DNA of 64,000 nt from Clostridiales bacterium (lineage in GTDB: Bacteria; Bacillota; Clostridia; Christensenellales; UBA1242), in NCBI GenBank assembly GCA_015069385.1, contig SVIS01000004.1, positions 1-64,000 on the forward strand, read 5' to 3'. Position 1 is the first letter of the stretch, and every line of letters begins with the position of its first letter. Position numbers and translations under genes: made by a program. The notes under the pieces were generated by a model, which saw nothing but the letters and a program-made list of their open reading frames with translations, was not told the origin of the DNA and searched no databases. Shown in pieces: positions 1 to 53,990 of the stretch.

Positions 1-1338
1 GCCACAGTATCAACATCAACTACACCACTAGAAATACGAGGAGCCGATGCATCATTAAGTTTTGGTGACAAATATTTTAGTGACTTAACAACTTCTGGAA
101 AACCACAAGATATAAAAGTTGTATTAAATTTTACAAATGTTTCAGAATTTAATGCAATTGCTCAAGTACAAATAACATCAACAGCAAATATAAACATAAC
201 AAGTGATAAAGAAGGTTTAATTTTATTAAAAACAGGCGATGATGCATCTGGTTCAATAACATATACTTTATCACCAATTTCAAATGACCAAGGTGAGTAT
301 GAAAGTTTTTCTGCATCTGAATTAACTTTGAATATAAATTTATTAAAAGCAAATTATCAAGAAACATCATTTAGAACAGATGTAACAGTAAAACAATTTA
401 CTCAAGAAGAAAAAGCATCTATAAAACAAGGCTTAGGCGATGCAGCATGTTGTTACGACATACCATATGGCGAGCAATATAAAAATTATGCCGAACGTTT
501 TACATATGTAGAAATGGGAACAGAAGTAGCAACTGGGGCAAAACTAAGATGGCTTGTTGTGGGTGTAGATAATAATGGTGCAGTGGCAGCATTAACCTTA
601 GATGATAAAATGGCATTAAGTAATGGCTTTATGTTAAATAAAGACTACTATTTATTATCAGAAAAAGTATTATATAGCGAAAATGCAACTAATTATGGAA
701 TTGCATTCCAAAATGAATATTCAAATACAGAACCATTTTTAAATACAGAATATGGCGTAAGTGCAAACGATTATGCAACAAGTAATGTTAGAAAATATTT
801 AAATGGCACTTCAGTAAAAAGAGATTATGAATATGACCAAACAAATAATGTATATAAAAGTAGTGGAACACAAGTAGGTTTTGCTAGCACATATACTTTT
901 ACAACCGAAGAAACCAACAAAATTAAAGCAAGATCAATAACTCAAATGTATGAAACCGATACTGCAAGGGTAACTTATGATGAAGATGATAACATAATTT
1001 ATTCAACAGCCCAAACAGGACAAACATTCCCAACAACTCAAACCGGCAAAGCAACAATAGATAGCACAGCCCAAGATAAATTTTGGTTGTTAAGCGAAAC
1101 CGAATTATGGACAGTATTTGCCGAAGATACCTTAATATGCGATTCAGACTCCTGGAAAGTATTTATGTCAGCACGTACTATGGTTCAGGGTACAACTTCT
1201 GGGGCTGCTAGTTGGTGGCTCCGCTCGCCTAGCGCTTCTTTTGCGAATTCTGCGCGTTGCTTGAGCGTCGGAGGTTGCTCTTATGGGGACTATGTCGAGA
1301 ACGCTTACGCCGGCGTTCGTGCGGCTTTCAAAATCTAG
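1..1338 (+). CDS. DGR target protein, 5'-truncated by window edge; secreted beta-domain plus C-terminal lectin-like (DUF6273/FGE-like) variable domain
   Basis: Frame 1 is open from base 1 (ATVSTSTTPLEIRGADASLSFGDKYFSDLTTSG...), so the ORF-track start at 328 is internal. C-terminus SGAASWWLRSPSASFANSARCLSVGGCSYGDYVENAYAGVRAAFKI lies over the VR. Confidence 0.9.
   Translation, partial: ATVSTSTTPLEIRGADASLSFGDKYFSDLTTSGKPQDIKVVLNFTNVSEFNAIAQVQITSTANINITSDKEGLILLKTGDDASGSITYTLSPISNDQGEYESFSASELTLNINLLKANYQETSFRTDVTVKQFTQEEKASIKQGLGDAACCYDIPYGEQYKNYAERFTYVEMGTEVATGAKLRWLVVGVDNNGAVAALTLDDKMALSNGFMLNKDYYLLSEKVLYSENATNYGIAFQNEYSNTEPFLNTEYGVSANDYATSNVRKYLNGTSVKRDYEYDQTNNVYKSSGTQVGFASTYTFTTEETNKIKARSITQMYETDTARVTYDEDDNIIYSTAQTGQTFPTTQTGKATIDSTAQDKFWLLSETELWTVFAEDTLICDSDSWKVFMSARTMVQGTTSGAASWWLRSPSASFANSARCLSVGGCSYGDYVENAYAGVRAAFKI
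1198..1324 (+). repeat. DGR variable repeat (VR1)
   Basis: 127-bp alignment to 2057-2183 without gaps; 18 mismatches, all at TR adenines (9 A>G, 8 A>T, 1 A>C by hand count); non-A positions identical. Confidence 0.96.
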
Positions 1339-1409
1339 TGCAGTTTAGGGTATAAAAAGTTAACCGCATACCGCAATGATGTGGAGGCTGTAAACTTAAG
1401 TATATATCA

Positions 1410-1428
1410 CGCACCTTTTTAAGGTGCG
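1410..1428 (+). other. Perfect hairpin/cruciform downstream of VR1 (CGCACCTT-TTT-AAGGTGCG)
   Basis: 8-bp stem with 3-nt loop, about 85 bp after the VR end, no following T-tract; possible DGR target-recognition hairpin. Confidence 0.5.
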
Positions 1429-1463
1429 AAAAATGTGAACATAAGTTTAGCAAAAAAACAACT

Positions 1464-2021
1464 ATGGAAGAAAATAAAAAAATAACAAGCAAAGCCTCTG
1501 CGCCACAAAGTGGCGCTGTGGCAGAAGAAGAAAAAAAATTATCTGCAAATATGCAGGCAAAAGTCGATAAACTAGAAAAGCAATTAAATAGCAAAATTAC
1601 ACCACAAAAACCTACAATTCACTTAAGAAAAGATGCAAGCGAATTAATAGTTATATCTCGTACTAGAGACTTTGTAAAATATGTTATAAATGCAACTCGT
1701 AAAATTCCTAAAAGCGAAAGATATTCTTTTGCTTTTAGATTACAAACTTTGGCTCTTAATATTATTGAAAACATGGTTAGGGCTAATAATATTATTGTTA
1801 AACCTAAAAAAATTGAGCAATATAAAAAGCGATACGAGTTTCAAGAAAAGGCAATGGGTGACCTTAAAGTTTTAGAATATTTGGTTGCCATTGCAGTGGA
1901 AGAAGAATTTATGCTTGTAAAACAATTTGAACAAATTGCAAAACAAGGTACCGAAATATCTATTCTGCTTACAAAGTGGATTGAAAGTGACAAAAGGCGA
2001 TTCTTGGCTAATTGCCAATAA
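1464..2021 (+). CDS. avd: DGR accessory variability determinant (Avd-like four-helix bundle protein)
   Basis: Small basic helical protein (VKYVINATRKIPKSERYSFAFRLQTLALNIIENMVRANN) between VR gene and TR/RT; matches Avd/S23-like proteins in sequence character and position. Confidence 0.85.
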   Translation: MEENKKITSKASAPQSGAVAEEEKKLSANMQAKVDKLEKQLNSKITPQKPTIHLRKDASELIVISRTRDFVKYVINATRKIPKSERYSFAFRLQTLALNIIENMVRANNIIVKPKKIEQYKKRYEFQEKAMGDLKVLEYLVAIAVEEEFMLVKQFEQIAKQGTEISILLTKWIESDKRRFLANCQ

Positions 2022-2056
2022 AATATATAGAATCGTAGGGAGCAGGTTTGAAGCAA

Positions 2057-2183
2057 TCTGGGGCTGCTAATTGGTGGCTCCGCTCGCCTAACGCATCTAA
2101 TGCGAATAATGCGCGTTACTTGAACAACGAAGGTTACTCTAATGAGAACAATGTCGAGAACGCTAACGCCGGCGTTCGTGCGG
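2057..2183 (+). repeat. DGR template repeat (TR)
   Basis: Non-coding position between avd and RT; AAY-rich (would encode SGAANWWLRSPNASNANNARYLNNEGYSNENNVENANAGVRA); adenine-specific differences from VR1. Confidence 0.96.
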
Positions 2184-2463
2184 ATATACCCCAAATAGTG
2201 AGAATGCTATCGTAAGCACGCTAGCACAGTGCCTTGGGGGTAAAGGAATCTGCTTCCTTCTATATTTATTAAACCATGTTAAACCTTACTCTTAAACATG
2301 GTTATTAAATATTAGAAAAAACGAGCCGCTGGAATAAATGACATTAGCGCAAGGCTAATCTCTTAAATTTTTGTTTTCCTAAAAAAGACCCGGCGGACAA
2401 AAGAGGTGAAGCAAGAAATTGCTTTGCCGCTTTTAAATTTAGGCTATTTTTATTTGGTAAGTT
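2184..2463 (+). ncRNA. Structured TR-RT spacer of the DGR RNA
   Basis: Non-coding; potential stems include TACCCCAA pairing with TTGGGGGTA and a hairpin AAGCAA-GAAA-TTGCTT (2409-2424) with an extended imperfect stem. Confidence 0.6.
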
Positions 2464-3492
2464 ATGATTAAATTTGAAGATGTTTTTAATTTTAAAAATT
2501 TATACGAGGCTCACCTAAGGGCAAGAAAATGCAAAAGGCACAAGCGTGAAGTTGTAGACTTTGAAGTAAATCTTGCACAAAATTTAACAAAATTAGAAAA
2601 ATCTTTGCAAGATGGTACTTATAAAATTCAAGGCTATAAGAGATTTATGATTTATGACCCCAAAGAACGTGAAATTCAAGCACTTTCTTATTATGACCGT
2701 ATTGTTCAAAATTGTTTATGCTACAATTTTATGGTGCCTGTATATTGTAAAAAGTTAATTTATGATAATGCTGCTTGCCAAAAAGGCAAAGGTACACATT
2801 TTGCTCGCGCTCGCCTAGAGCGCTTTTTGCATGATTATTATAAAAAATATGGCTATCAAGGTTATGTTTTAAAAGTAGACATAAAAAAATATTTTAATAA
2901 TATTAATCATCAAATATTAAAACAAATTTTTTCTACTATATATGATTTTAAACTAAAAGATTTAGTATTTAATATTATAGATAGTTTTGAATATTCACCA
3001 AATAAAGGTGTGCCTATGGGTAATCAAACTAGCCAAATTTTTGCACTTTTATATTTAAATAATTTAGACCGAATAATTAAAACTAAATTTAAAATTAAAT
3101 ATTATATAAGATATATGGACGATTTAATTTTAATTCATTCAAACAAACAAAATTTAATTGAGGTATATAATTATATAAATTTGTATGTTCAAAAAGTTAA
3201 AATAGAATTAAATAAAAAATCAAAAATATTTGCATTTAAAAACGGAATTGATTTTTTAGGTGTAAAATATAAACTTTTAAAAACGGGAAAATTATTAAAA
3301 AAAATGAAGCGACAAAGCAAAGACCGAATGTTAAAGCGTATTAAATTTTTACATGAGCAATTTTTTGAAAAAATAATTAATAAACAAATATTAAAAATGA
3401 GTCTTGCTGGCTTTAAAGGAAATATTAAAAGACTTAATGTAAATGGCGTTGCAATTAAATATTTATCCTATTTAAAAAGTTTAGCAGCATAA
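2464..3492 (+). CDS. DGR-type reverse transcriptase
   Basis: RT motifs: YMDD (IRYMDDLILIHSN) and DGR-characteristic SQ motif (GVPMGNQTSQIFALLYLNNLD); adjacent TR/VR/avd. Confidence 0.97.
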   Translation: MIKFEDVFNFKNLYEAHLRARKCKRHKREVVDFEVNLAQNLTKLEKSLQDGTYKIQGYKRFMIYDPKEREIQALSYYDRIVQNCLCYNFMVPVYCKKLIYDNAACQKGKGTHFARARLERFLHDYYKKYGYQGYVLKVDIKKYFNNINHQILKQIFSTIYDFKLKDLVFNIIDSFEYSPNKGVPMGNQTSQIFALLYLNNLDRIIKTKFKIKYYIRYMDDLILIHSNKQNLIEVYNYINLYVQKVKIELNKKSKIFAFKNGIDFLGVKYKLLKTGKLLKKMKRQSKDRMLKRIKFLHEQFFEKIINKQILKMSLAGFKGNIKRLNVNGVAIKYLSYLKSLAA

Positions 3493-7141: not shown

Positions 7142-10100
7142 ATGAAAACTAATAAAAAATCTTTATTGTTGTTATTATTTGTTGCAATAACTGTGGGGCT
7201 TTGTGGCTCTTTCTTTATTACTGTAAATAGCAATAATGTTGTAAAAGCAGAAACAAATGTTGCAAAAATTTATAACGGTTCAAGTTGGACAAATTATACA
7301 ACTTTAGAGTCTGCAATTTCGGCAGCCTCAAGTGGTGGAACAATTGTTATGCTTGATGATTATGAAATGCAATCTTATATAACAATAAATAAAAATTTAA
7401 CTATTGTTGCACAAAAGGATTCTAAAATATCAGCCTATGATCAAAGGCGCGGACTTTTTTATGTAAGTTCAGGAAAAACATTAACCTTAGGTAGTGCAGC
7501 ATCTACATACCAAAATATATCATTAAATAATTTATATCTTGATGGAGATGCAGATGAATCATATTCAGAAGAGGCAATGATATATGTTGCTGGAACTTTA
7601 AACATGTATGATGGTGTATGTTTGCAAAACAACATTAATTATGTTAGCAACGGCGGCGGTGCAATACATGGTACGGAAACAAGCATTATAAATATTTATG
7701 GTGGTAAAATTATAAATAATAAGGCATTAAAAGGTGGCGGAATATATTCAGAAGGTGTAATAAAAATACAAAATTGTGAAATATCTAATAACGTTGCCAC
7801 AGACAGTGATGGCGGTGGTTTATATACAACAAGTGAAGTAGAGTTAATAAATTGTACAATTTCTAACAATGTAGCAGTTTCTAGCGGTGGTGGGGCATAT
7901 TTTAAATATGAGGCTTATGTAACAAATTGCACAATAACAAATAATAATGCAGGAAAATTTGCAGGTGGAATCTATGCCTATTCATGGTTAGATATATATG
8001 GTAGTACAGTATCTAAAAATGTAGCACAAAGTTACGGTGGCGGTATTTTTACTTTAGACCAATTTTATATCGATGATTGCCAAGTTACAAATAATGAAGC
8101 AGAAGATGGTGCTGGAATATGGTCAGAATATGGAGCAGTAGTAACTAATTCATCCATTTCAAAAAATACAGCAACTGGGCAATATGGGGCAGGTGGAATG
8201 TATGTTGAATACTTTTTAACTATAACAAATTCTGCAGTTTCATATAACACTGGAAATATTGGTGGAGTTAGTGTTGATGGTGAATTAACCATGGAAAGTT
8301 GTGAACTTATTGGCAATGAGTCAAAAGAAAATATTGGTGGTGGTGTATATGTATTTGGCGAGGCAACAATAACAGGCTCTTTAATATCTGGCAACATTGC
8401 AAATGGCGATGGTGGTGGAATATGTATTGAGGGTACGGCAGAAATAACAAATTCAACAATATCAAATAATTATGCAAATGATGGTGAAGGTGGTGGAATA
8501 TATGTTGAAAGCACATCAACTATAACAAATTGTATAATTTCAAATAACTCATCAAAAACTAATGGTGGTGGAATTACTGCTGGTGGCAATTTAACTTTAA
8601 CCAATTGTACATTATCAAAAAATTCAGCCGAAAATGCTGGTGGTGGAATATATACTGGTTATGATTTGTCATTAAATAATTGCACAATATCAAATAATTA
8701 TGCAAATGGTGAAGGTGGTGGAATATGGTGCGATGGTACTATATTTGAATTAACCGATTGTGTAATATCAAAAAATGAAACAACAGGCTGTGGTGGTGGT
8801 ATATTTACTTACTGTGGAGCAACAATAACTAATTGTGAAATAAATGGCAATAAAGCAGCCGTTGCAGGTGGAATATATCATCAATTTGAAATGACAATTA
8901 TAAATAGTATTATATCAGACAATGAAGCAACCTCAGGCAATGGTGGAGGAATTTTTTGTGACGATGACTTAACAATACAAAATAGCACAATAGCCAACAA
9001 TTCAGCAGCCTCAGGCAATGGTGGTGCTATATATGCGGATTATAATATAACTATAACTGATTGTGAAATTTATAACAACACCGCAGCAGTCGGAAATGGT
9101 GGAGCAATTTGCATTTTGCCGGATTATGATTGTACTATTACAAATTGTCGCATTTATAAAAATAGTGCATCAAATGGTGGTGCATTATACAATGATTGCT
9201 CTTATCCAACAATAACAAATTGTGAGTTTTTTGAAAATACAGCAAGTTCTAATGGCGGAGCAATATTTTCTAGAGGGATTGCATTAATTCAAAGTTGTAA
9301 TTTTACCAAAAATGAAACAATAAATGAATTTGGTGGTGCAATTTACAATACTGGTGAAATGGCAATAAAAGACTCATCAATATCAAATAACTGTGGTAAT
9401 GATGGTGGTGGCGCAATTTATAATGTTGGGGGACTAACATTAGAAAATTGCGAGTTGTTAAACAACAAGTCGAGTTGTGCAGGAGCAATATATGATGACG
9501 GCGGTGTAACAATAATTAATTGTACAATTAAAAATAATGAAGCAGACGATGGAAACAATATTTTTGTTGAAACTGATGGAATGTTGACTTTTGAAGGTGA
9601 AAATTTAATTGATGGAACAATAGAAACACAAGAACCTATTACAATAAATAGTGGGGCAACTTTTGCAGAAACTATAAATTTAAAAGCCACAACTCCAACA
9701 AATTTTATTTCAACTGCAATAATAACATATAAAAATGAATCAGATATTAACTTAGACAATTTTAATTTATTAAATCAAAACTATCGTTTGGCTTTAGGAA
9801 AAACTGAAGAAACAAAACTAAATGTGTATATATCAAATGAATTTATATTTACATATGACTTAAATTATGAAGCCGAGCCAATAACTCAAACATATGAATA
9901 CGGTGCAACATTAACAAAAATAAGTAATCCAACAAGAACTCATTATGTGTTTGCGGGTTGGTATACCGAAGCAGAATGTGAAACAGAATACACATTCACT
10001 ACAATGCCAGCAAACGATGTAACAGTATATGCAAAATGGGAAAAAGCAACATATACAATAACAGCAACAGCAAATGCCGGAGGAACAATAACTCCTAGTG

Positions 10101-13100
10101 GGGCAACTGGATATGAATATTTAGATTCAGCAACATACACATTTGCAGCAAATGTAGGCTATTATATATCTGAAATTAAAGTAGACAATGTAGCATTAAC
10201 ACAAAATGAATTAACTGTAGCAAAAATTAATGGCTATAAATTTACAGACATTTCAGCAAACCATACAATTTCAGTAAGTTTTTCAATAACAAAATTTACA
10301 ATCACAGTAACCCAAGCAGCAAATGGAAGCATAAGTGCGGCACAAAGTAGTTATAACTATGGCACAAATGCAAGTTTTACAATCACACCAAACGCAGGTT
10401 ATAGCATTGAATGTTTAATAATTGATGGAGCCGAATATACAACTGGAACTCTTACAGCATATACATTTACAAACATAACAGCAAATCATACAATCTCAGC
10501 AAAATTTGCAATAAATAGATATACAGTAACAGTAACTCAAGCAGCAAATGGAACCATAAGCGCAGCACAAAGCAGTTATGCATATGGAAGTGAAGCAAGT
10601 TTTACAATCACACCAAACGCAGGTTATAGCATTGAATGTTTAATAATTGATGGAACACAATATACAAATGGAATTCTTACAGCATATACATTCAAAAATA
10701 TAACAGCAAATCATACAATCTCAGCAAAATTTGTAATAAATAAATACACAATCACAGTAACCCAAGCAGCAAATGGCAGCATAAGTGCAGCACAAAGTAG
10801 TTATAACTATGGCACAAATGCAAGTTTTACAATCACACCAAACGCAGGTTATAGCATTGAATGTTTAATAATTGATGGAGCCGAATATACAACCGGAACT
10901 CTTACAGCATATACATTTACAAACATAACAGCAAATCATACAATCTCGGCAAAATTTACTGCGGAATCAACAACAACATACACAGTAAAACACTGGCAAG
11001 AAAGTTTAACTCAAACCGGAGCAACAAAGATTGGTGAAAAGTATTATGTAGAAGTTGAAACAGAAACCAAAACAGGAACAACAGCAACTTATACTCAAGC
11101 AACAGCAAAAACATATACAGGTTTTACAGCAGAACAAATAGAACAACAAGTAATTTTAGGCAATGCAACAACTGTAGTAAATGTTCTATATGCAAGAAAC
11201 ACCTACGAAGTTGTAATATTAACCGACTCAGGTATATTATCAACAACAGGTGCTGGTGAATATAAGTATGGACAAGAAGTAACAGTAACAGCGGAAGTAA
11301 AATCAAGTTACACATGGATGGGTTGGACAAGTGCAAACTCAGGAGTAAATGATAGTACAAATAAATCATACACATTCACAATGCCAATAGGTGCGGTATG
11401 TTTAACAGCCAACACAACAATAGTTGCAACAACATATACATTAACAGCAACAGCAGGCGAGAATGGAACAATAAATCCAGCAGGAACAAGAACTGTTGAA
11501 GCAGGAGATTCAATAACATATACAATCACACCAAATGTAGGTTATGTAATAAAAGATGTAAAAGTAGACAATGTAAGTCAAGGTGTAATAAATACATATG
11601 CGTTTACAGAAATAGATAATAATCATACAATATATGTAGAATTTGAAATAATTAAATTTACAATCACAGTAACCCAAGCAGCAAATGGAACTATAAGTGC
11701 AGCACAAAGTAGTTATAACTATGGCACAAATGCAAGTTTTACAATCACACCAAACGCAGGTTATAGCATTGAATGTTTAATAATTGATGGAGCCGAATAC
11801 ACAACTGGAACACTTACAACATATACATTTACAAACATAACAGCAAATCATACAATCTCGGCAAAATTTACTGCGGAATCAACAACAACATACACAGTAA
11901 AACACTGGCAAGAAAGTTTAACCGAAACCGGAGCAACAGAGATTGCTGGAAAGTATTATGTAGAAGTTGAAACAGAAACCAAAACAGGAACAACAGCAAC
12001 TTATACTCAAGCAACAGCAAAAACATATACAGGTTTTACAGCAGAACAAATAGAACAACAAGTAATTTTAGGCAATGCAACAACTGTAGTAAATGTTCTA
12101 TATGCAAGAAACACCTACGAAGTTGTATTAGTAAACGATGGTGGGCTAGAAAGCATAACAGGTGCTGGTAAATACAAATTTGGTCAAGCAGTAACGGTAA
12201 CCGCCACATTAAAACAAGACTATTTATGGAATAAATGGGCAACTGCAAATGCATCATTAGATGATGGTTTAAGCAAAGAATACACGTTTACAATGCCAGC
12301 AGAAAATGTATGCTTAACAGCAACTACAGAAAAATATGAATTTAATGTAATAATAAATCAACCACTAAATGGAACTATAACACCAAATACAAACCAAAAA
12401 GTTGTAGGTGGGTCAAGTTTAACATTACAACTACACGCTAATGCAGGATACACAATTCAATCGTTAATAGTAAATGGAATAGATTGTACCTCTTTAATAG
12501 TTGATAACGAATATGTAATAGAAAATATAGTAGAAAATAAAGAAGTATCAGCAACATTTGCAATATTAACATATCAAATTGTATCAAGTGCGGAAGGCAA
12601 TGGAACAATAAGTCCAGAAGGTACAATAATGTTAAACTACGGAGAAACTAAAACTTATGAATTTACACCAAGTGCTGGTTATAAGGTAAAAGATGTTAAA
12701 GTAGATAATGAAAGTAAAGGTGCATTAACATCATACACATTTGAAAGGGTTAATGCTTCACATACAGTTGTAGTAGAATACGAAGCAATCAAATTAAATG
12801 TGATTACAAATGTAGATGGACAAGGTACAATTACAAGTGCACAATCATTAACAAACATAGCATATGGAGATAGTAGGTTATTAGAAATTGAAGTTGAATC
12901 AGGTTGGGAAATCTACAAGCTTTATATCAACGGAGTGGCAGTAGAAGTACAAGACAATCAAGTAATGTTAAAAAACATAACACAAGATTTAAACGTTCAA
13001 TTGTTAGTAGTACAACCTCAAACAAACGAGGGCAATGGTGGGCTAACAGTAATATTAATAATATTATCAGTTGCAGTTGCAGCAGGAGTAGTTATATTAG

Positions 13101-13366
13101 TTTTAAAGAAACTAAAAACTCGTAGAGCACAATTAAAAGCGCAAGATATGTATGATGAAAAATTAGAAAAATTAATAAAAGAAACATCATTAAGAAAAGA
13201 AAAATTACAACAACAAAACGCAACACAAAAAGTGCAAGAAAAAACTAACACACAAGAAACTCCAAAGGTAAGTGAGACAAAACAAACAGTGCAAACAGAA
13301 CAACAAACTAAAAACGTTGCACATAAGCAACCTCCAAAATTACCACCTAAAAAACCTATGCAATAA
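7142..13366 (+). CDS. Giant secreted/membrane-anchored surface protein: right-handed beta-helix repeats, InlB B-type repeats, MucBP-like repeats, C-terminal TM and cytoplasmic tail
   Basis: Signal peptide; many GGGIYxxxxxTITNCxISNN repeats; FAGWYTEAECETEYTFTTMPANDVTVYAKW; repeated FTITVTQAANGSISAAQSSY modules; VKHWQESLTQTGATKIGEKYYVEVETETKTGTT; TM near the C-terminus. Confidence 0.95.
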   Translation: MKTNKKSLLLLLFVAITVGLCGSFFITVNSNNVVKAETNVAKIYNGSSWTNYTTLESAISAASSGGTIVMLDDYEMQSYITINKNLTIVAQKDSKISAYDQRRGLFYVSSGKTLTLGSAASTYQNISLNNLYLDGDADESYSEEAMIYVAGTLNMYDGVCLQNNINYVSNGGGAIHGTETSIINIYGGKIINNKALKGGGIYSEGVIKIQNCEISNNVATDSDGGGLYTTSEVELINCTISNNVAVSSGGGAYFKYEAYVTNCTITNNNAGKFAGGIYAYSWLDIYGSTVSKNVAQSYGGGIFTLDQFYIDDCQVTNNEAEDGAGIWSEYGAVVTNSSISKNTATGQYGAGGMYVEYFLTITNSAVSYNTGNIGGVSVDGELTMESCELIGNESKENIGGGVYVFGEATITGSLISGNIANGDGGGICIEGTAEITNSTISNNYANDGEGGGIYVESTSTITNCIISNNSSKTNGGGITAGGNLTLTNCTLSKNSAENAGGGIYTGYDLSLNNCTISNNYANGEGGGIWCDGTIFELTDCVISKNETTGCGGGIFTYCGATITNCEINGNKAAVAGGIYHQFEMTIINSIISDNEATSGNGGGIFCDDDLTIQNSTIANNSAASGNGGAIYADYNITITDCEIYNNTAAVGNGGAICILPDYDCTITNCRIYKNSASNGGALYNDCSYPTITNCEFFENTASSNGGAIFSRGIALIQSCNFTKNETINEFGGAIYNTGEMAIKDSSISNNCGNDGGGAIYNVGGLTLENCELLNNKSSCAGAIYDDGGVTIINCTIKNNEADDGNNIFVETDGMLTFEGENLIDGTIETQEPITINSGATFAETINLKATTPTNFISTAIITYKNESDINLDNFNLLNQNYRLALGKTEETKLNVYISNEFIFTYDLNYEAEPITQTYEYGATLTKISNPTRTHYVFAGWYTEAECETEYTFTTMPANDVTVYAKWEKATYTITATANAGGTITPSGATGYEYLDSATYTFAANVGYYISEIKVDNVALTQNELTVAKINGYKFTDISANHTISVSFSITKFTITVTQAANGSISAAQSSYNYGTNASFTITPNAGYSIECLIIDGAEYTTGTLTAYTFTNITANHTISAKFAINRYTVTVTQAANGTISAAQSSYAYGSEASFTITPNAGYSIECLIIDGTQYTNGILTAYTFKNITANHTISAKFVINKYTITVTQAANGSISAAQSSYNYGTNASFTITPNAGYSIECLIIDGAEYTTGTLTAYTFTNITANHTISAKFTAESTTTYTVKHWQESLTQTGATKIGEKYYVEVETETKTGTTATYTQATAKTYTGFTAEQIEQQVILGNATTVVNVLYARNTYEVVILTDSGILSTTGAGEYKYGQEVTVTAEVKSSYTWMGWTSANSGVNDSTNKSYTFTMPIGAVCLTANTTIVATTYTLTATAGENGTINPAGTRTVEAGDSITYTITPNVGYVIKDVKVDNVSQGVINTYAFTEIDNNHTIYVEFEIIKFTITVTQAANGTISAAQSSYNYGTNASFTITPNAGYSIECLIIDGAEYTTGTLTTYTFTNITANHTISAKFTAESTTTYTVKHWQESLTETGATEIAGKYYVEVETETKTGTTATYTQATAKTYTGFTAEQIEQQVILGNATTVVNVLYARNTYEVVLVNDGGLESITGAGKYKFGQAVTVTATLKQDYLWNKWATANASLDDGLSKEYTFTMPAENVCLTATTEKYEFNVIINQPLNGTITPNTNQKVVGGSSLTLQLHANAGYTIQSLIVNGIDCTSLIVDNEYVIENIVENKEVSATFAILTYQIVSSAEGNGTISPEGTIMLNYGETKTYEFTPSAGYKVKDVKVDNESKGALTSYTFERVNASHTVVVEYEAIKLNVITNVDGQGTITSAQSLTNIAYGDSRLLEIEVESGWEIYKLYINGVAVEVQDNQVMLKNITQDLNVQLLVVQPQTNEGNGGLTVILIILSVAVAAGVVILVLKKLKTRRAQLKAQDMYDEKLEKLIKETSLRKEKLQQQNATQKVQEKTNTQETPKVSETKQTVQTEQQTKNVAHKQPPKLPPKKPMQ
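10741..11213 (+). repeat. Intragenic long repeat, copy 1 (about 470 bp)
   Basis: Near-identical to 11653-12125 at constant offset 912 bp. Confidence 0.9.
11653..12125 (+). repeat. Intragenic long repeat, copy 2
   Basis: Near-identical to 10741-11213; the VTQAANG module also recurs at about 10292-10508 and, more diverged, 10517-10730. Confidence 0.9.
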
Positions 13367-14232: not shown

Positions 14233-15525
14233 ATGAAGAAAAACATTAAATGGCTAATAAATGTAGCAACAATATGCTTGTGCTTGTGTGCAATAGCAAT
14301 AGGTGTATACGCAGCCAAACAAGCGTCCTTGACCGCCACCGGCACAATAGGGTTTACAGCAACTAATGTATACGCAGAAGTAAGCGGACAAACAAGTGGA
14401 GCAGCAGAAGAAGTAACATTTAATAAAATAACAATAGACTCTACAAAAACAGGTAATTCATATACAGATACAACAACATGGTCAGGGAAGAATATAGAGT
14501 TTGATGAAGAAGGAACACCAATAACATTAACTTTTACAATAACAAACTTAGCAACTGATAGAGAGGTTTATGCAAAAGTAACAAGTACAAGTAGTATAAC
14601 TAATGTTAATATGTCAATAAATGGTACAGAAGGTGCTTTAAACAGTGGGTGGTTAACTTTAGGCGCAAACACACAAGGAGCAACAAACTATACTACCGAA
14701 ATAGTAATAGTATTATCAGTAGCAAATACAGATATTTCAGTAAGTGGAAACTATGCTTTTAATCTTGAATTGAATAGCAAAAAACCAGCAACCATGGCTG
14801 ACTTAGTTAAATATGACACAACAAACAACTATTATTATATAGTTATGGGAGAATATGGGGACAACGAAGTACGTTGGAGATATATTTCAGATGTAACAAG
14901 TGGAATAGATAGTGCAACAAAATTTACGCCAAGTTCAACAAATAAACCAAACACTACAACTGGTGCAAAGGGTATGTTTATTTTAGAAACTGTTACAAAT
15001 TCAATGAAATATGCTACTGCACCATATAGTGATGGGGCTCCTGGAAAACCGCCACAATATAATCATACTACAGAGGGTTATACTGATTTAACAATAACTG
15101 ATTATGGTACAAGTGATGTAAGATCATATTTAAATAATGAAACAAATATTTTGGGTAACGATGTAGGAACAATATTTGAAACATTAGGAATAGATGCTAG
15201 CAACGAAGTATATGCAAATATACAAGCAAGGCCTATGACAGACTTTTATGATGCAGTTCCATCACAATTTGAAGGCGAAGAAGATAAATTTTGGATTTTA
15301 TCTAAATCAGAAGCAGAAACATTTTTAAATAATGACTTACCATGGTATGGAACTACTGGCGGAACAACCCACAATATTTATTGGTTGCGTACACCGCTTT
15401 CAGCACATTGGATGTGGTATGTAGCAATATGCCCTGGTGGATCGGAGGTTGTTATAGACGACTGTATGTATTATTATATACAAGATACATTAAACGTTCG
15501 CCCTACATTCATTTTAAATTTTTAA
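14233..15525 (+). CDS. Secreted DGR-target-family protein with lectin-like C-terminus
   Basis: MKKNIKWLINVATICLCLCAIAIGVYAAKQASLTATGTIGFTA N-terminus shared with paralogues; C-terminus IYWLRTPLSAHWMWYVAICPGGSEVVIDDCMYYYIQDTLNVRPTFIL. Confidence 0.88.
   Translation: MKKNIKWLINVATICLCLCAIAIGVYAAKQASLTATGTIGFTATNVYAEVSGQTSGAAEEVTFNKITIDSTKTGNSYTDTTTWSGKNIEFDEEGTPITLTFTITNLATDREVYAKVTSTSSITNVNMSINGTEGALNSGWLTLGANTQGATNYTTEIVIVLSVANTDISVSGNYAFNLELNSKKPATMADLVKYDTTNNYYYIVMGEYGDNEVRWRYISDVTSGIDSATKFTPSSTNKPNTTTGAKGMFILETVTNSMKYATAPYSDGAPGKPPQYNHTTEGYTDLTITDYGTSDVRSYLNNETNILGNDVGTIFETLGIDASNEVYANIQARPMTDFYDAVPSQFEGEEDKFWILSKSEAETFLNNDLPWYGTTGGTTHNIYWLRTPLSAHWMWYVAICPGGSEVVIDDCMYYYIQDTLNVRPTFILNF
15379..15513 (+). 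repeat. VR-like C-terminal region (VR4, putative)
   Basis: WLRTP...NVRPTF framework similar to VR1 protein region, enriched in W/Y/C/M; no direct TR match in window. Confidence 0.4.
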
Positions 15526-27957: not shown

Positions 27958-28968
27958 GTGGAAAAATTTTTTCGAGAATATTTAGTAAATTTAGGAATAT
28001 ATGAACTAAGGTCACTTGCACGCACAGTGGGGGTTAAGTCGCCAACAACTAAAAAACATAGTGAACTTGTTGATTGTATTTTAAAAGTTCAAAGTGGTGA
28101 GCAACAGGCTTTTGTTAGTAAAAAAGGTAGGCCACCTAAAACAATAACAATGGCTAAAACTGTAAATTATGTTAGTTTTGAAAGAGCGGAAGGTTTGCCA
28201 ACTGGTTTTGAATATGCCGAAGATTCTGCTCGCAGTTTTAATTTGTGCAATGATGAAATTGTTGATGGAATAAACAAAACAACTTTTCCTTGCAAGGGTT
28301 TATTAAGAGAGGTAGATGGCAAAAAATATATTTACAATTATTCAAGTAGTCGTAAATTTGTTTTTGTTGATGATCCATTTGTTAAAGAACATAATTTAAA
28401 AAAAGGTGATTTAATTATTGGAACTGCTTGTCCAACTGGTGACGCTACCGGTTTTTTAGATGCAATTACCGATATTAACTTTAATAGCGTTTGTTCTTGC
28501 CAGAAGCAAACACAAGCAGTAGCACAATTATGTCCTTTAAATAATATTAAAGAAATTTATGAAGAAATAAAACAAGAACAACAAGATATAAAAATGGTTG
28601 TAGAACTAGAAGTTCCTTCATTAAGTTTGTTAGAATTAAAAGACCATTGTCTTTATTTTTCTAGCGAAGAAAGAGAAGATGTTCAACGTTCATACAATGC
28701 AGTATTAAATTGTAAAAATTTAATAAATAAATTAAGTGAACAAAATAAACCATTTACACTCAGGTTTATAGATATAGATTATATTTATTCTGTAATTAAT
28801 GCCTATAATACCTCTAAAGGTTTAAGAGCAGATTTAGATGCTGGGCAATTTATAAAGGAAATTTTACTTGATGTAAAAAAATGCAATGGCTCAAAAGTAA
28901 TTTTTTATGAAGTAGCGGGCTATAAACGTAATTCTTATTTAGATGCAATTTTAAATAAATATTTGTAA
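27958..28968 (+). CDS. Rho N-terminal-domain-like protein lacking a Rho ATPase domain
   Basis: SAP-like N-terminus (LGIYELRSLARTVGVKSPTTKKHSELVDCIL) and Rho RNA-binding-like region (GLLREVDGKKYIYN...FVDDPFVKEHNLKKGDLIIG); no Walker motifs; GTG start. Confidence 0.65.
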   Translation: MEKFFREYLVNLGIYELRSLARTVGVKSPTTKKHSELVDCILKVQSGEQQAFVSKKGRPPKTITMAKTVNYVSFERAEGLPTGFEYAEDSARSFNLCNDEIVDGINKTTFPCKGLLREVDGKKYIYNYSSSRKFVFVDDPFVKEHNLKKGDLIIGTACPTGDATGFLDAITDINFNSVCSCQKQTQAVAQLCPLNNIKEIYEEIKQEQQDIKMVVELEVPSLSLLELKDHCLYFSSEEREDVQRSYNAVLNCKNLINKLSEQNKPFTLRFIDIDYIYSVINAYNTSKGLRADLDAGQFIKEILLDVKKCNGSKVIFYEVAGYKRNSYLDAILNKYL

Positions 28969-31929: not shown

Positions 31930-31957
31930 TTGACAATTGGCTGGGGGGGGGTAGAAT
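31930..31957 (+). promoter_or_regulatory. Shared family promoter copy 2 with G9 spacer tract
   Basis: TTGACA 31930-31935, G9 31943-31951, TAGAAT 31952-31957. Confidence 0.85.
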
Positions 31958-31986
31958 ACAAATATATCATTAAAAAGGAGAAAAAA

Positions 31987-33378
31987 ATGAAGAAAAACTA
32001 TAAATGGTTAATAAACGTAGCAACATTAGTACTGTGTGTATGTGCTTTAGCCATAGGCGTGTACGCAGCCAAACAAGCAAGTTTAACCGCCACCGGAACA
32101 ATAGGCTTTACAGCCCATGGTTTAGACTTAAATATTAATGCATATATAACAGGTCATGCAACCAGTGAAAAAGGAGAACCACAAGAAAGAACACAAATAG
32201 CAACAAATAAAAATGTAACAGGAGATGATAGTATAGCATTAAGTAATATATTCTTCACCGACCTAACCACTTCAGGAGAAGTAGAAGATATAGTGCTAGA
32301 ACTAGAAGTAACAAATAATTCACAATTTGCAATAGAGGGAGTATTAACACTACCAACAAACCTAACACAAGTAACATATAATACAAACAATGCAACACTC
32401 CAACTAGGCAAAGGTGCAACCGCAACAATGAAAATAACCCTAAGCCTACCAACAACAGCAACAAGTTTTGATGCAGTAACACCAAACCTAGAGGTAAACT
32501 TTACAAAACTAAACTTGCTAAAAACAGCAAAGTTTACAACAGCACAATCACACGATATTGACTACGTAGCAGACTCATCATATTACTATATATCAATGGG
32601 AAGTGCAGTAGTAAATAATGTGGTACAAGAAGTCCGCTGGTTACCATTTGCAGAAAAACAAACAGATGGCACATGGAAACACTTTGACAAAAAGAACAAG
32701 CCAATAGCAAATAAAGAATATTACTTTGTATCAGAATATGTATTAGATGCAAGTGGTAGTTCATGTGCTTTAGCATTCACAAATAATCTTAATTGTGATG
32801 ATTACACAAGCACAGAATACGAAGGAGTAAATGCAAATACATACCTAGTAAGTAACTTACGTAAATATATGAAGAGTACAGAAGAAAGCCCAGCATATAG
32901 AACAAACACATCACAAGATAATGAGGAAACATATGAAGATGATACAACAGAACCAGTAAACCTATTAACCCAATACAGCCTAGAAGATAGTTATGTTTAT
33001 AATACCTTAATAACAGCACGCCTAGCAAGCGAACTATTTGTAGAGAACTCAAATGATACATACGCAGAAATATTAGGCTTAACAGATGCACCATTAACTT
33101 CAGGTAATAATGCCTCAGATAAACTCTGGGCAATGAGCAGAGAAGAATTGGGCTATATGGTAAACACAACAATTGAAGACTGGGAAACTTATGAAGCCGC
33201 AAAAACAACCCAATTCCGGGGCACGACAAACCCTGTCATGTTCTGGCTTCGTTCGCCTGTCTCTGGCAACGCTAGGCGTGCGAGGTATGTCGACTATGAT
33301 GGCTACTTCGCCTCCAGCGAAGCCCACGGCGACTCATGCGCGGCGCGCCCTGCTTTCCAACTTACAATACCTGCTTAA
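31987..33378 (+). CDS. Secreted DGR-target-family protein with lectin-like variable C-terminus
   Basis: MKKNYKWLINVATLVLCVCALAIGVYAAKQASLTATGTIGFTAHG; C-terminus VMFWLRSPVSGNARRARYVDYDGYFASSEAHGDSCAARPAFQLTIPA; ATG 31987 follows AAGGAG. Confidence 0.92.
   Translation: MKKNYKWLINVATLVLCVCALAIGVYAAKQASLTATGTIGFTAHGLDLNINAYITGHATSEKGEPQERTQIATNKNVTGDDSIALSNIFFTDLTTSGEVEDIVLELEVTNNSQFAIEGVLTLPTNLTQVTYNTNNATLQLGKGATATMKITLSLPTTATSFDAVTPNLEVNFTKLNLLKTAKFTTAQSHDIDYVADSSYYYISMGSAVVNNVVQEVRWLPFAEKQTDGTWKHFDKKNKPIANKEYYFVSEYVLDASGSSCALAFTNNLNCDDYTSTEYEGVNANTYLVSNLRKYMKSTEESPAYRTNTSQDNEETYEDDTTEPVNLLTQYSLEDSYVYNTLITARLASELFVENSNDTYAEILGLTDAPLTSGNNASDKLWAMSREELGYMVNTTIEDWETYEAAKTTQFRGTTNPVMFWLRSPVSGNARRARYVDYDGYFASSEAHGDSCAARPAFQLTIPA
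33237..33358 (+). repeat. Putative DGR variable repeat (VR2) of a different template
   Basis: Abrupt GC-rich segment at the same protein position as VR1, but differs from the local TR at many non-A positions. Confidence 0.65.
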
Positions 33379-37307: not shown

Positions 37308-38465
37308 ATGAAGAAAAACATTAAATGGCTAATAAATGTAGCAACAATATGTTTGTGCTTGTGTGCAATAGCAATAGGTGTATATGCAGCAAAACAAGCC
37401 TCACTAACTGCCACCGGTACAATAGGGTTTACAGCAACTAATGTATATGCAGAAGTAAGTGGACAAACAAGTGGAGCAGCAGAAGAGGTAACATTTAATA
37501 CAATAACAATAGACTCAACAAAAACAGGAAATCCATATACAGATACAACAACATGGTCAGGGAAGAACATAAATTTTAATGAAGAAGGAACACCAATAAC
37601 CCTAACATTTACAATAACCAACCTGTCAACCGGTAGACCCCTATATGCAAAAGTAACAAACACAAGTTCAGCAACAAACTTAAGTGTAAAAGTAAACGAA
37701 TCAGAGTTTACCGAAACAGAGTGGATAACCGTACAATCAAAAACAGAAGGCTCAACAGCAAATACAACAACAGTAGTAATATCACTAAGCGTAGCCGATG
37801 ATAATGAATCAGTAACCGGTAATTATGGCTTTAATATTGAATTGCAAAGCACTGAGCCAGAAGTTGTTAATCCTGAAATGGAAAATGCACTTACAATTTC
37901 AGAATGGAATAGCAAAACTGATGGTACTGCATTGGGTTTTGACATTAAAGATGGTAAAGCATATGTAAAACAAATCTCTTCTGAAAAAACCTATGGTGCT
38001 ATAGTTGTGCCTGCATATGTTAAAGATAACTCAGATAGTTCAACAACATATCCAGTTGTTGGTTTGTCTTATGATGGTGCGATGCCAACAAACCAAATGT
38101 TTTATAACAATGCTGAAATAACTAGTATAGTTTTGCCAACAACGTTTGAAGATTTAAATTCTACAATTACTAACACAACTTTGGCATCTGCATTTGAGAA
38201 CTGTACAAAGTTGGAGCAGGTAACAATATTAAATGGAACGGGTCAATTATATGCGAATTTTTTTAAAGGATGCACCAATTTAAAATCAATTGTTATTCCT
38301 GCGGGAATTACTTCTATATATATGTGGGCGTTTTCTGGTTGCTCTAATTTGACAGATGTTTACTTTATGGGAACTCAAGATCAGTGGAATAGTATTGAAA
38401 TAAATAGCAGTGGTAACGATGCTTTAATAAATGCATCTGTTACCTATGATTATAAAGTAGCATAG
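37308..38465 (+). CDS. Secreted family paralogue with BspA/LRR_5-like C-terminus instead of a lectin-like domain
   Basis: N-terminal about 120 aa nearly identical to 14233-15525; C-terminal FENCTKLEQVTILNGTGQLYANFFKGCTNLKSIVIPAGITSIYMWAFSGCSNLTDVYFMGTQDQW. Confidence 0.92.
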   Translation: MKKNIKWLINVATICLCLCAIAIGVYAAKQASLTATGTIGFTATNVYAEVSGQTSGAAEEVTFNTITIDSTKTGNPYTDTTTWSGKNINFNEEGTPITLTFTITNLSTGRPLYAKVTNTSSATNLSVKVNESEFTETEWITVQSKTEGSTANTTTVVISLSVADDNESVTGNYGFNIELQSTEPEVVNPEMENALTISEWNSKTDGTALGFDIKDGKAYVKQISSEKTYGAIVVPAYVKDNSDSSTTYPVVGLSYDGAMPTNQMFYNNAEITSIVLPTTFEDLNSTITNTTLASAFENCTKLEQVTILNGTGQLYANFFKGCTNLKSIVIPAGITSIYMWAFSGCSNLTDVYFMGTQDQWNSIEINSSGNDALINASVTYDYKVA

Positions 38466-52619: not shown

Positions 52620-52647
52620 TTGACAACCGGCTGGGGGGGGGTAGAAT
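52620..52647 (+). promoter_or_regulatory. Shared family promoter copy 4 with G9 spacer tract
   Basis: TTGACA 52620-52625, G9 52633-52641, TAGAAT 52642-52647. Confidence 0.85.
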
Positions 52648-52676
52648 ACAAATATATCATTAAAAAGGAGAGTAAA

Positions 52677-53990
52677 ATGAAAAAGAATTTCAAATGGCTA
52701 ATAAACCTAGCCACCCTAGTACTATGCGTATGTGCTCTAGCCATAGGCGTGTACGCAGCAAAACAAGCAAGCCTTACCGCTACCGGAACAATAGGCTTTA
52801 CAGCCCATGGCTGTAAAGTAAAGGTGTCAGGAACAATAGATGCGTATGATGAAGACTTTACCACAAAACTAACAGGAACAGAAGCAACAATAGCAGAAAC
52901 ACTAGTAGATGAAGAAGGAAAAGAACTACCTCTTCCAGCAATGTACTTTAGTGATTTGGCAGAAGAAGGAAATACAATAACAATAAACTTAAAAATAACA
53001 AGCGACTCAGACTTTGCAGTACTATGTAATATACCAAACCCAGTAGCATATGATAGTACAGCAACAACGATAGAAATAACCTCTGTAAGAGGAGTAACCT
53101 CACACCAATCATTTGTACTATCAACAAAAGGTGAGTATAAAGATATAACAATAAAATTCACTTTAACCGATATAGAAACAGCCGCAGATATAACTGCAAC
53201 CTTTGATGCAAACCTAGAGTTTAAAAAATACACTTTTGATAGAAGTGCATTAAAATTAGCGGACACAGCAAATAGTGACACAGGGTTAGATGTAGGTAAC
53301 CTATACGTAGAAATGGGTGAGTACAACAGCACACCACTCAAATGGTATGCATTTGGCTATAGTGCATCTGGTAGCGAAGAAATGTCAACAGGCAATATGA
53401 CAACACTAGATGGCACAGTGTTTACCGATACAACATCTACAAATGTACCAGAAGGAACATATTTCTTTATATCAGAGTATGCTTTAGGAACAAGTACATT
53501 CCACGATACATATTCAGGAGACCCAGCGGAAATGGAATATAATGGTTCACCATTATATACAGCAATAAATGCACTTGCAACTTCAAGTACATACAAAATA
53601 GGCACTTCAACATTATATAACCAAATAGTAGCAAGAAATTTAGCAGGTGGAGATTACACCTTCTACGATGGCTGGAACGATGATCCTGGCGATTATGAAA
53701 CAATAGAAACCCGCCATACAAATTCAAGTACAAATCAAATGCTATGGGCGCTTTCATATGATGAAGCATATATACTGTTAAGAAATGGAACAGATGCAAA
53801 TGCTAAAACTGCAGACATGACGACTGGTGGTACAGCCGCTTGCGGTTGGTGGCTCCGATCGCCTAGCAGTTGCGATTCTTTCAACGAGGGCTCTGGCGCG
53901 AGGTTTGTCAACTCTAGTGCCTTGAACTCCAACAATTTCGTCAATTACGATTATGGCGTTCGTGCGGCTTTCAAACTTGTAATAGCATAA
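52677..53990 (+). CDS. Secreted DGR-target-family protein with lectin-like variable C-terminus
   Basis: MKKNFKWLINLATLVLCVCALAIGVYAAKQASLTATGTIGFTAHG; C-terminus GWWLRSPSSCDSFNEGSGARFVNSSALNSNNFVNYDYGVRAAFKLVIA. Confidence 0.93.
   Translation: MKKNFKWLINLATLVLCVCALAIGVYAAKQASLTATGTIGFTAHGCKVKVSGTIDAYDEDFTTKLTGTEATIAETLVDEEGKELPLPAMYFSDLAEEGNTITINLKITSDSDFAVLCNIPNPVAYDSTATTIEITSVRGVTSHQSFVLSTKGEYKDITIKFTLTDIETAADITATFDANLEFKKYTFDRSALKLADTANSDTGLDVGNLYVEMGEYNSTPLKWYAFGYSASGSEEMSTGNMTTLDGTVFTDTTSTNVPEGTYFFISEYALGTSTFHDTYSGDPAEMEYNGSPLYTAINALATSSTYKIGTSTLYNQIVARNLAGGDYTFYDGWNDDPGDYETIETRHTNSSTNQMLWALSYDEAYILLRNGTDANAKTADMTTGGTAACGWWLRSPSSCDSFNEGSGARFVNSSALNSNNFVNYDYGVRAAFKLVIA
53843..53975 (+). 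repeat. Putative DGR variable repeat (VR3) of a different template
   Basis: GC-rich; ends in GGCGTTCGTGCGGCTTTCAAA, identical to the VR1 3' flank; centre differs from the local TR in length and at non-A positions. Confidence 0.7.

Follow-up and report, generated by a model that had tools for sequence, protein, structure and literature searches.

A chromosomal DGR in a small Clostridia-type genome and a template-target pair that seems to work at a distance

Described DGRs and the setting of the locus

The DGR of Bordetella phage BPP-1 has the order mtd - avd - TR - brt, and its template (TR) and variable repeat (VR) differ at adenines only. A hairpin just after the VR is required for efficient homing in this system (PMC3240598), and a structured spacer RNA lies between the TR and the reverse transcriptase (RT) gene (PMC12875486). 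The DGRs of phages nd4 and nd12 act on DUF6273 'tentaclin' targets, which are phage receptor-binding proteins, and the DUF6273 domain has been compared to C-type lectins in published models (PMC10743442). Remote DGR targets are already known (PMC4891356, PMC7517822), and a global DGR survey was, by its own statement, blind to them (PMC8144416). Treponema denticola genomes carry several remote targets, including relic targets without a cassette, along with one RT and one TR each, and the RT-less strains are also without the TR (PMC4891356). Several DGRs per genome with trans targeting are known as well; the 7.95 Mb genome of Thiohalocapsa PB-PSB1 has nine loci and 15 targets, RT-less degenerate loci, trans targeting deduced from VR/TR matches, and transposon-driven decay (PMC10907252). 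The DGRs of Nanoarchaeota DUSEL4 are archaeal, with targets unrelated to those described here (PMC4372165).

The stretch of DNA analysed here (the window, 64,000 bp) was contig C28:1-64000 of a draft genome (G000) of 1.21 Mb in 31 contigs, 98% complete with 2% contamination. The window contained a DGR cassette in the order target - Avd - TR - RT. It resembled BPP-1 in this order, in the adenine-only TR/VR differences, in a hairpin after the VR and in a structured spacer RNA between TR and RT. Unlike BPP-1, it was chromosomal and had a DUF6273 target, several cassettes and an RT-less template were present in one genome, and the hairpin lay approximately 85 bp beyond the VR, compared with 4 bp in the phage. 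DUF6273 targets were common to nd4/nd12 and this genome, whereas the targets here were encoded on a bacterial chromosome and bore secretion-signal-like N-termini. Several remote targets and relic targets without a cassette were shared with T. denticola, and multiple loci with RT-less members with Thiohalocapsa. Differing from the latter, the 1.2 Mb genome had a single main target family, and one TR stood by itself between housekeeping genes, its clean target being located elsewhere.

A phage origin of the window cassette was considered and rejected. By reading, its neighbours were chromosomal housekeeping genes of the SecA, FtsH, RecF-, MnmE- and gyrase-type, and phage RTs were at most 41% identical to the window RT, the best phage match being the RT of nd12 (41%). 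A comparison with viral contigs gave two matches at 37-40%.

The window cassette

The cassette was composed of the following features.

1-1338, + strand: target gene, an open reading frame with 445 aa seen, its 5' end cut by the contig start
aa 253-445 of the target: C-terminal DUF6273 domain (PF19789), E = 2.9e-9
1198-1324, + strand: VR1, with 18 of the 31 TR adenines changed and no other difference
1346-1428, + strand: post-VR element, TAGGGTA-N28-GTGGAG-N19-ATCA followed by an 8-bp hairpin
1410-1428, + strand: post-VR hairpin, CGCACCTT-TTT-AAGGTGCG, with an 8-bp stem and a fold z of -4.65
1464-2021, + strand: Avd accessory protein, PHROG 'Avd protein of DGR' (6.4e-19)
2035-2051, + strand: conserved motif 5' of TR1, GTAGGGAGCAGGTTTGA (GTAGGGCTAGGTTTAAG at TR2 and TR4)
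2057-2183, + strand: TR1, a gapless match to VR1
2183-2266, + strand: structured RNA flanking the TR (spacer), which extends on towards the start of the RT gene
2464-3492, + strand: DGR reverse transcriptase of 342 aa, with DIKKYF, GNQTSQ and YMDD

A sequence-only reading of this DNA had proposed a complete DGR core with a 127-bp gapless TR/VR1 alignment, 18 adenine substitutions and mainly AAY codons affected. Exact realignment reproduced these counts. All 18 mismatches (9 A>G, 8 A>T and 1 A>C) fell on TR adenines and none on the 96 other positions (hypergeometric P = 6.3e-14); 15 codons were altered, of which 10 were AAY and none became a stop. The proposal of a complete core held for every feature testable in the sequence, with the target gene truncated at its 5' end. 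VR1 stopped 14 nt short of the end of the target gene. An extension of the TR/VR block past position 2183 (GATATA to GCTTTC) was rejected, as this stretch recurred nearly unchanged after the VRs of other targets and thus sits outside the mutated block. VR1 was present as a single allele in this assembly, and no second exact VR for TR1 was found in the genome. The AlphaFold model of the target was of low confidence (mean pLDDT of 41) and was not used.

The window RT matched RVT_1 (E = 1e-18) and the PHROG RT family (8e-91). By sequence, the closest PDB entries were the 8ub7 series, annotated 'Reverse transcriptase' (1.1e-30), which we take to be the BPP-1 bRT. The DIKKYF, GNQTSQ and YMDD regions were all aligned to 8ub7, confirming the YMDD and SQ motifs noted previously. 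The Avd-like gene predicted between VR and TR was recognised by PHROGs, yet it was divergent, scoring just below the curated cut-off of Pfam bAvd (38.9 vs 40 bits) and well below that of NCBIfam DivGenRetAVD (43.4 vs 80).

The TR-flank RNA was aligned over five templates, namely TR1, TR2 and TR4 of this genome and two of the relative RGIG4566. The 84-nt alignment had 25 consensus pairs, 10 of which showed compensatory change, and its covariation was 0.484, compared to 0.192 for shuffled alignments and 0.02-0.10 for slid controls. This element is likely the RNA that recruits RT and Avd. Membership in Rfam RT-14 (RF02921) was rejected, as the score on 2186-2303 (29.3 bits) was under the gathering cut-off of 48.1; the other template RNAs gave no match to this family.

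The post-VR pattern, in its genome-wide form TAGGGTA-N27/28-GTGGAG-N19/21-ATCA with a 7-8-bp hairpin after it, was found at exactly three VR loci, those of VR1, C3/C15 and C11, which are the partners of TR1, TR2 and TR4 (four places in total, since one locus was present on two contigs; the control gave 0). As efficient homing in BPP-1 needs the hairpin after the VR, the element is a candidate counterpart located farther from the VR, possibly acting as a target-recognition hairpin or cruciform.

The assignment as a DGR is supported at the sequence level by the RT clade and motifs, the Avd, the adenine-only TR/VR differences, a DUF6273 gene with the VR at its 3' end, the RNA 3' of the TR and the post-VR hairpin. 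We therefore regard the window element with high confidence as a chromosomal (cellular) DGR, and the cassette is a new member of the DGRs. The probability that TR and VR are a chance repeat or an ordinary duplicated coding segment is negligible, as nothing favours this beyond the presence of a repeat, and the adenine-only changes (P = 6e-14) and the adjacent RT and Avd speak against it.

Target genes and further cassettes of the genome

The genome contained three RTs and three Avds in total, corresponding to the cassettes on C28 (window), C15 and C20, with RT identities of 63% for C15 and 46% for C20. A related RT was detected in 39 of 198 family genomes, none of which had more than this genome. 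TR2, on C15, matched a VR on C1 (28/44 adenines and 0/97 non-adenines changed) and another on C3 (21/44 and 0/97), and also had a drifted partner on C31. The post-VR motif was absent from the clean C1 VR, so either the motif is not an absolute requirement or C1 derives from C3 by copying; the C1 gene may have been duplicated recently from the one on C3 rather than have gained its trans-VR by direct trans-homing. TR3, on C20, differed from its adjacent VR only at adenines in the core. In the C20 cassette (L061:3318-7623), the VR occupied aa ~78-135 of a 944-aa protein, close to its N-terminus and not at the C-terminus, and frames akin to it, bearing a VR, adjoined RTs in family genomes (L129, L131, L133).

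The ends of C15 and C3 had 144 bp in common, including the stop codon and non-coding sequence, indicating that the target belonging to the C15 cassette lies on C3. The two contigs gave different versions of this VR, as five of the shared positions differed, each of them a TR2 adenine (P = 4e-6 for the whole overlap and 0.003 for its VR part alone). This is most simply explained by a sampled population in which the C15-cassette VR existed in at least two versions; versions differing only at TR adenines would be an indirect sign of active mutagenic retrohoming. If the VRs at the C15 end and the C3 start were instead two loci and not alleles, they would be silent on activity in the population. 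A draft assembly with a repetitive gene family leaves room for this, but we consider it unlikely, as the stop codon and ~80 bp of downstream non-coding sequence were identical, the motif in this downstream sequence occurred otherwise only at the partners of TR1 and TR4, and the two copies differed only at TR2 adenines.

DUF6273 was found at 30 places in the genome, three of them templates, leaving approximately 27 target-type genes. Besides the cassette target, the window included the following paralogues.

14233-15525, + strand: paralogue sharing the N-terminus, with WLRTP at its C-terminus; no TR matched it
31930-33378, + strand: DUF6273 paralogue, VR from ~33235, TR4-related and drifted (16/98 non-A)
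52620-53990, + strand: DUF6273 paralogue, VR from ~53847, TR2-related and strongly drifted (22/84 non-A)

Family members with drifted VRs look like former or rarely rewritten targets. At 37308-38465, the N-terminal leader of the DGR targets was joined to a leucine-rich-repeat-like C-terminus without DUF6273, a make-up that suggests swapping of C-terminal domains. Near the DGR, 7142-13366 encoded a 2074-aa secreted protein that contains many repeats of the GGGIY type and, at its C-terminus, a transmembrane segment.

Terminal sequence was shared with another end at 56 of the 62 contig ends, mostly within target-gene N-termini, indicating that the gene family itself breaks the assembly and that most breaks are no evidence of VR variation. 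Contig breaks as a general sign of VR heterogeneity were thus rejected for most ends, and were kept for C15/C3 and possibly for C11. The same shared ends, together with the long near-identical N-terminal stretches that the target genes have in common, are compatible with a family in which paralogues diversify mainly by recombining with one another or by gene conversion, while the DGR just seeds variants at a few loci. In the 30 closest pairs, moreover, the upstream parts were 72-95% identical and the VRs 54-83%, and a matching TR was absent for most family members. We hold this explanation to be possible, leaning against it, because the partner VRs of TR1, TR2 and TR4 differ strictly at template adenines, a pattern that recombination between paralogues would not produce. 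The three cassettes draw on one target-gene family. Judged at the genome level, the arrangement is a new DGR variant, and its most novel element is the split pair described below.

A template and a target apart from RT and Avd

TR4 (C10:~28150-28290) lay in the middle of its contig, surrounded by ribosomal-protein genes, and was flanked by the 5' motif GTAGGGCTAGGTTTAAG and the full conserved 3' TR-flank RNA. There was no trace of an RT or Avd beside it on C10. At the end of C11 (L180:5738-5788), the last 51 bp of a VR differed from TR4 at 9/18 adenines and 0/33 other positions (P = 1.6e-5), the comparison stopping at 51 bp with the end of the contig; the same VR had at least 12 non-adenine mismatches to each of TR1-3. 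No RT or Avd was found on C11 either. All nine substitutions in this VR were A to T, giving a run of Tyr/Phe, a strong bias when compared with VR1.

As both TR4 and C11 are without RT and Avd, the pair most likely borrows them in trans. The probable source is the C15 cassette, whose template RNA is the closest to that of TR4 among the genome's own cassettes (82.5% identity, vs 71% for C28). The assembly is a draft, so a further RT could be missing, but it would still not adjoin TR4. Template, target and enzyme thus seem to work together at a distance. That this is a fully split DGR, in which TR4 on C10 rewrites the C11 target via RT and Avd supplied from a third locus and templates act as guide genes in their own right for one enzyme shared across a large surface-protein family, has in our estimate an even chance of being right. 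In the open-access literature searched, no case came up of a template without RT whose clean target is remote.

TR4 might instead be a dead remnant whose RT and Avd were deleted, with the C11 VR as the last product before the loss, still undrifted. RT loss has happened in relatives: one genome (G103) has an Avd, a TR and a VR gene with no RT found and already 7 non-adenine changes, and in a relic cassette of RGIG4566 (L123) the RT is reduced to a 30-aa stub. Four other TR4-related VRs, on C7, C8, C18 and C28 (33244), were A-biased but drifted, which also fits a remnant. On the other hand, TR4 retains the whole flank RNA, whose pairs are conserved via compensatory change across a set including TR4 itself, as well as its AAY codons; the C11 partner is unchanged at every non-adenine position of its 51 bp and is still followed by the post-VR motif; and no RT or Avd trace is left next to TR4. 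We rate a remnant as the less probable case, though a plausible one.

For a split DGR as for the cassettes, the proposed mechanism would begin with the uptake of the TR RNA and its structured 3' spacer by RT and Avd. By analogy with BPP-1, copying of the TR RNA would introduce errors at adenines, after which the cDNA would replace the VR at the 3' end of the gene for a secreted DUF6273 surface protein, which may have a binding role. The homing site would be marked by the GC-rich VR end and the downstream hairpin, and the TR4/C11 pair would be served in trans, probably by RT and Avd of the C15 cassette. About 3% of the DNA in this small-genome gut Clostridia-type bacterium appears to be given over to a single hypervariable surface-protein family with several templates. 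If templates act alone, some DGR targeting would escape surveys that seek a VR near an RT, and template RNAs could serve as programmable guides provided in trans. The TR-flank RNA and the post-VR motif would serve as simple search keys for split systems.

The weak TR-RNA match in G103 (L201 / L130) was rejected as a working DGR and treated as a relic; its TR and VR were real (14/34 adenines changed) and the Avd was an Avd-like frame, but non-adenine changes had occurred and the RT was absent. The nearest named relative, RGIG4566, is a roe-deer rectum MAG labelled Clostridia, and the same-genus genome that appears to be RGIG4566 had two RTs. On one of its contigs (L104, 3338 bp), whose end matched 23S rRNA, template and target were oriented opposite to the RT, and the local VR differed from the TR at 20/39 adenines and 0/85 other positions. 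The relic cassette (L123:2988-4930) had an intact target gene and no TR, and its VR still fitted the L104 template (15/39 adenines and 2/81 non-adenines changed), as though a template acting in trans had maintained it.
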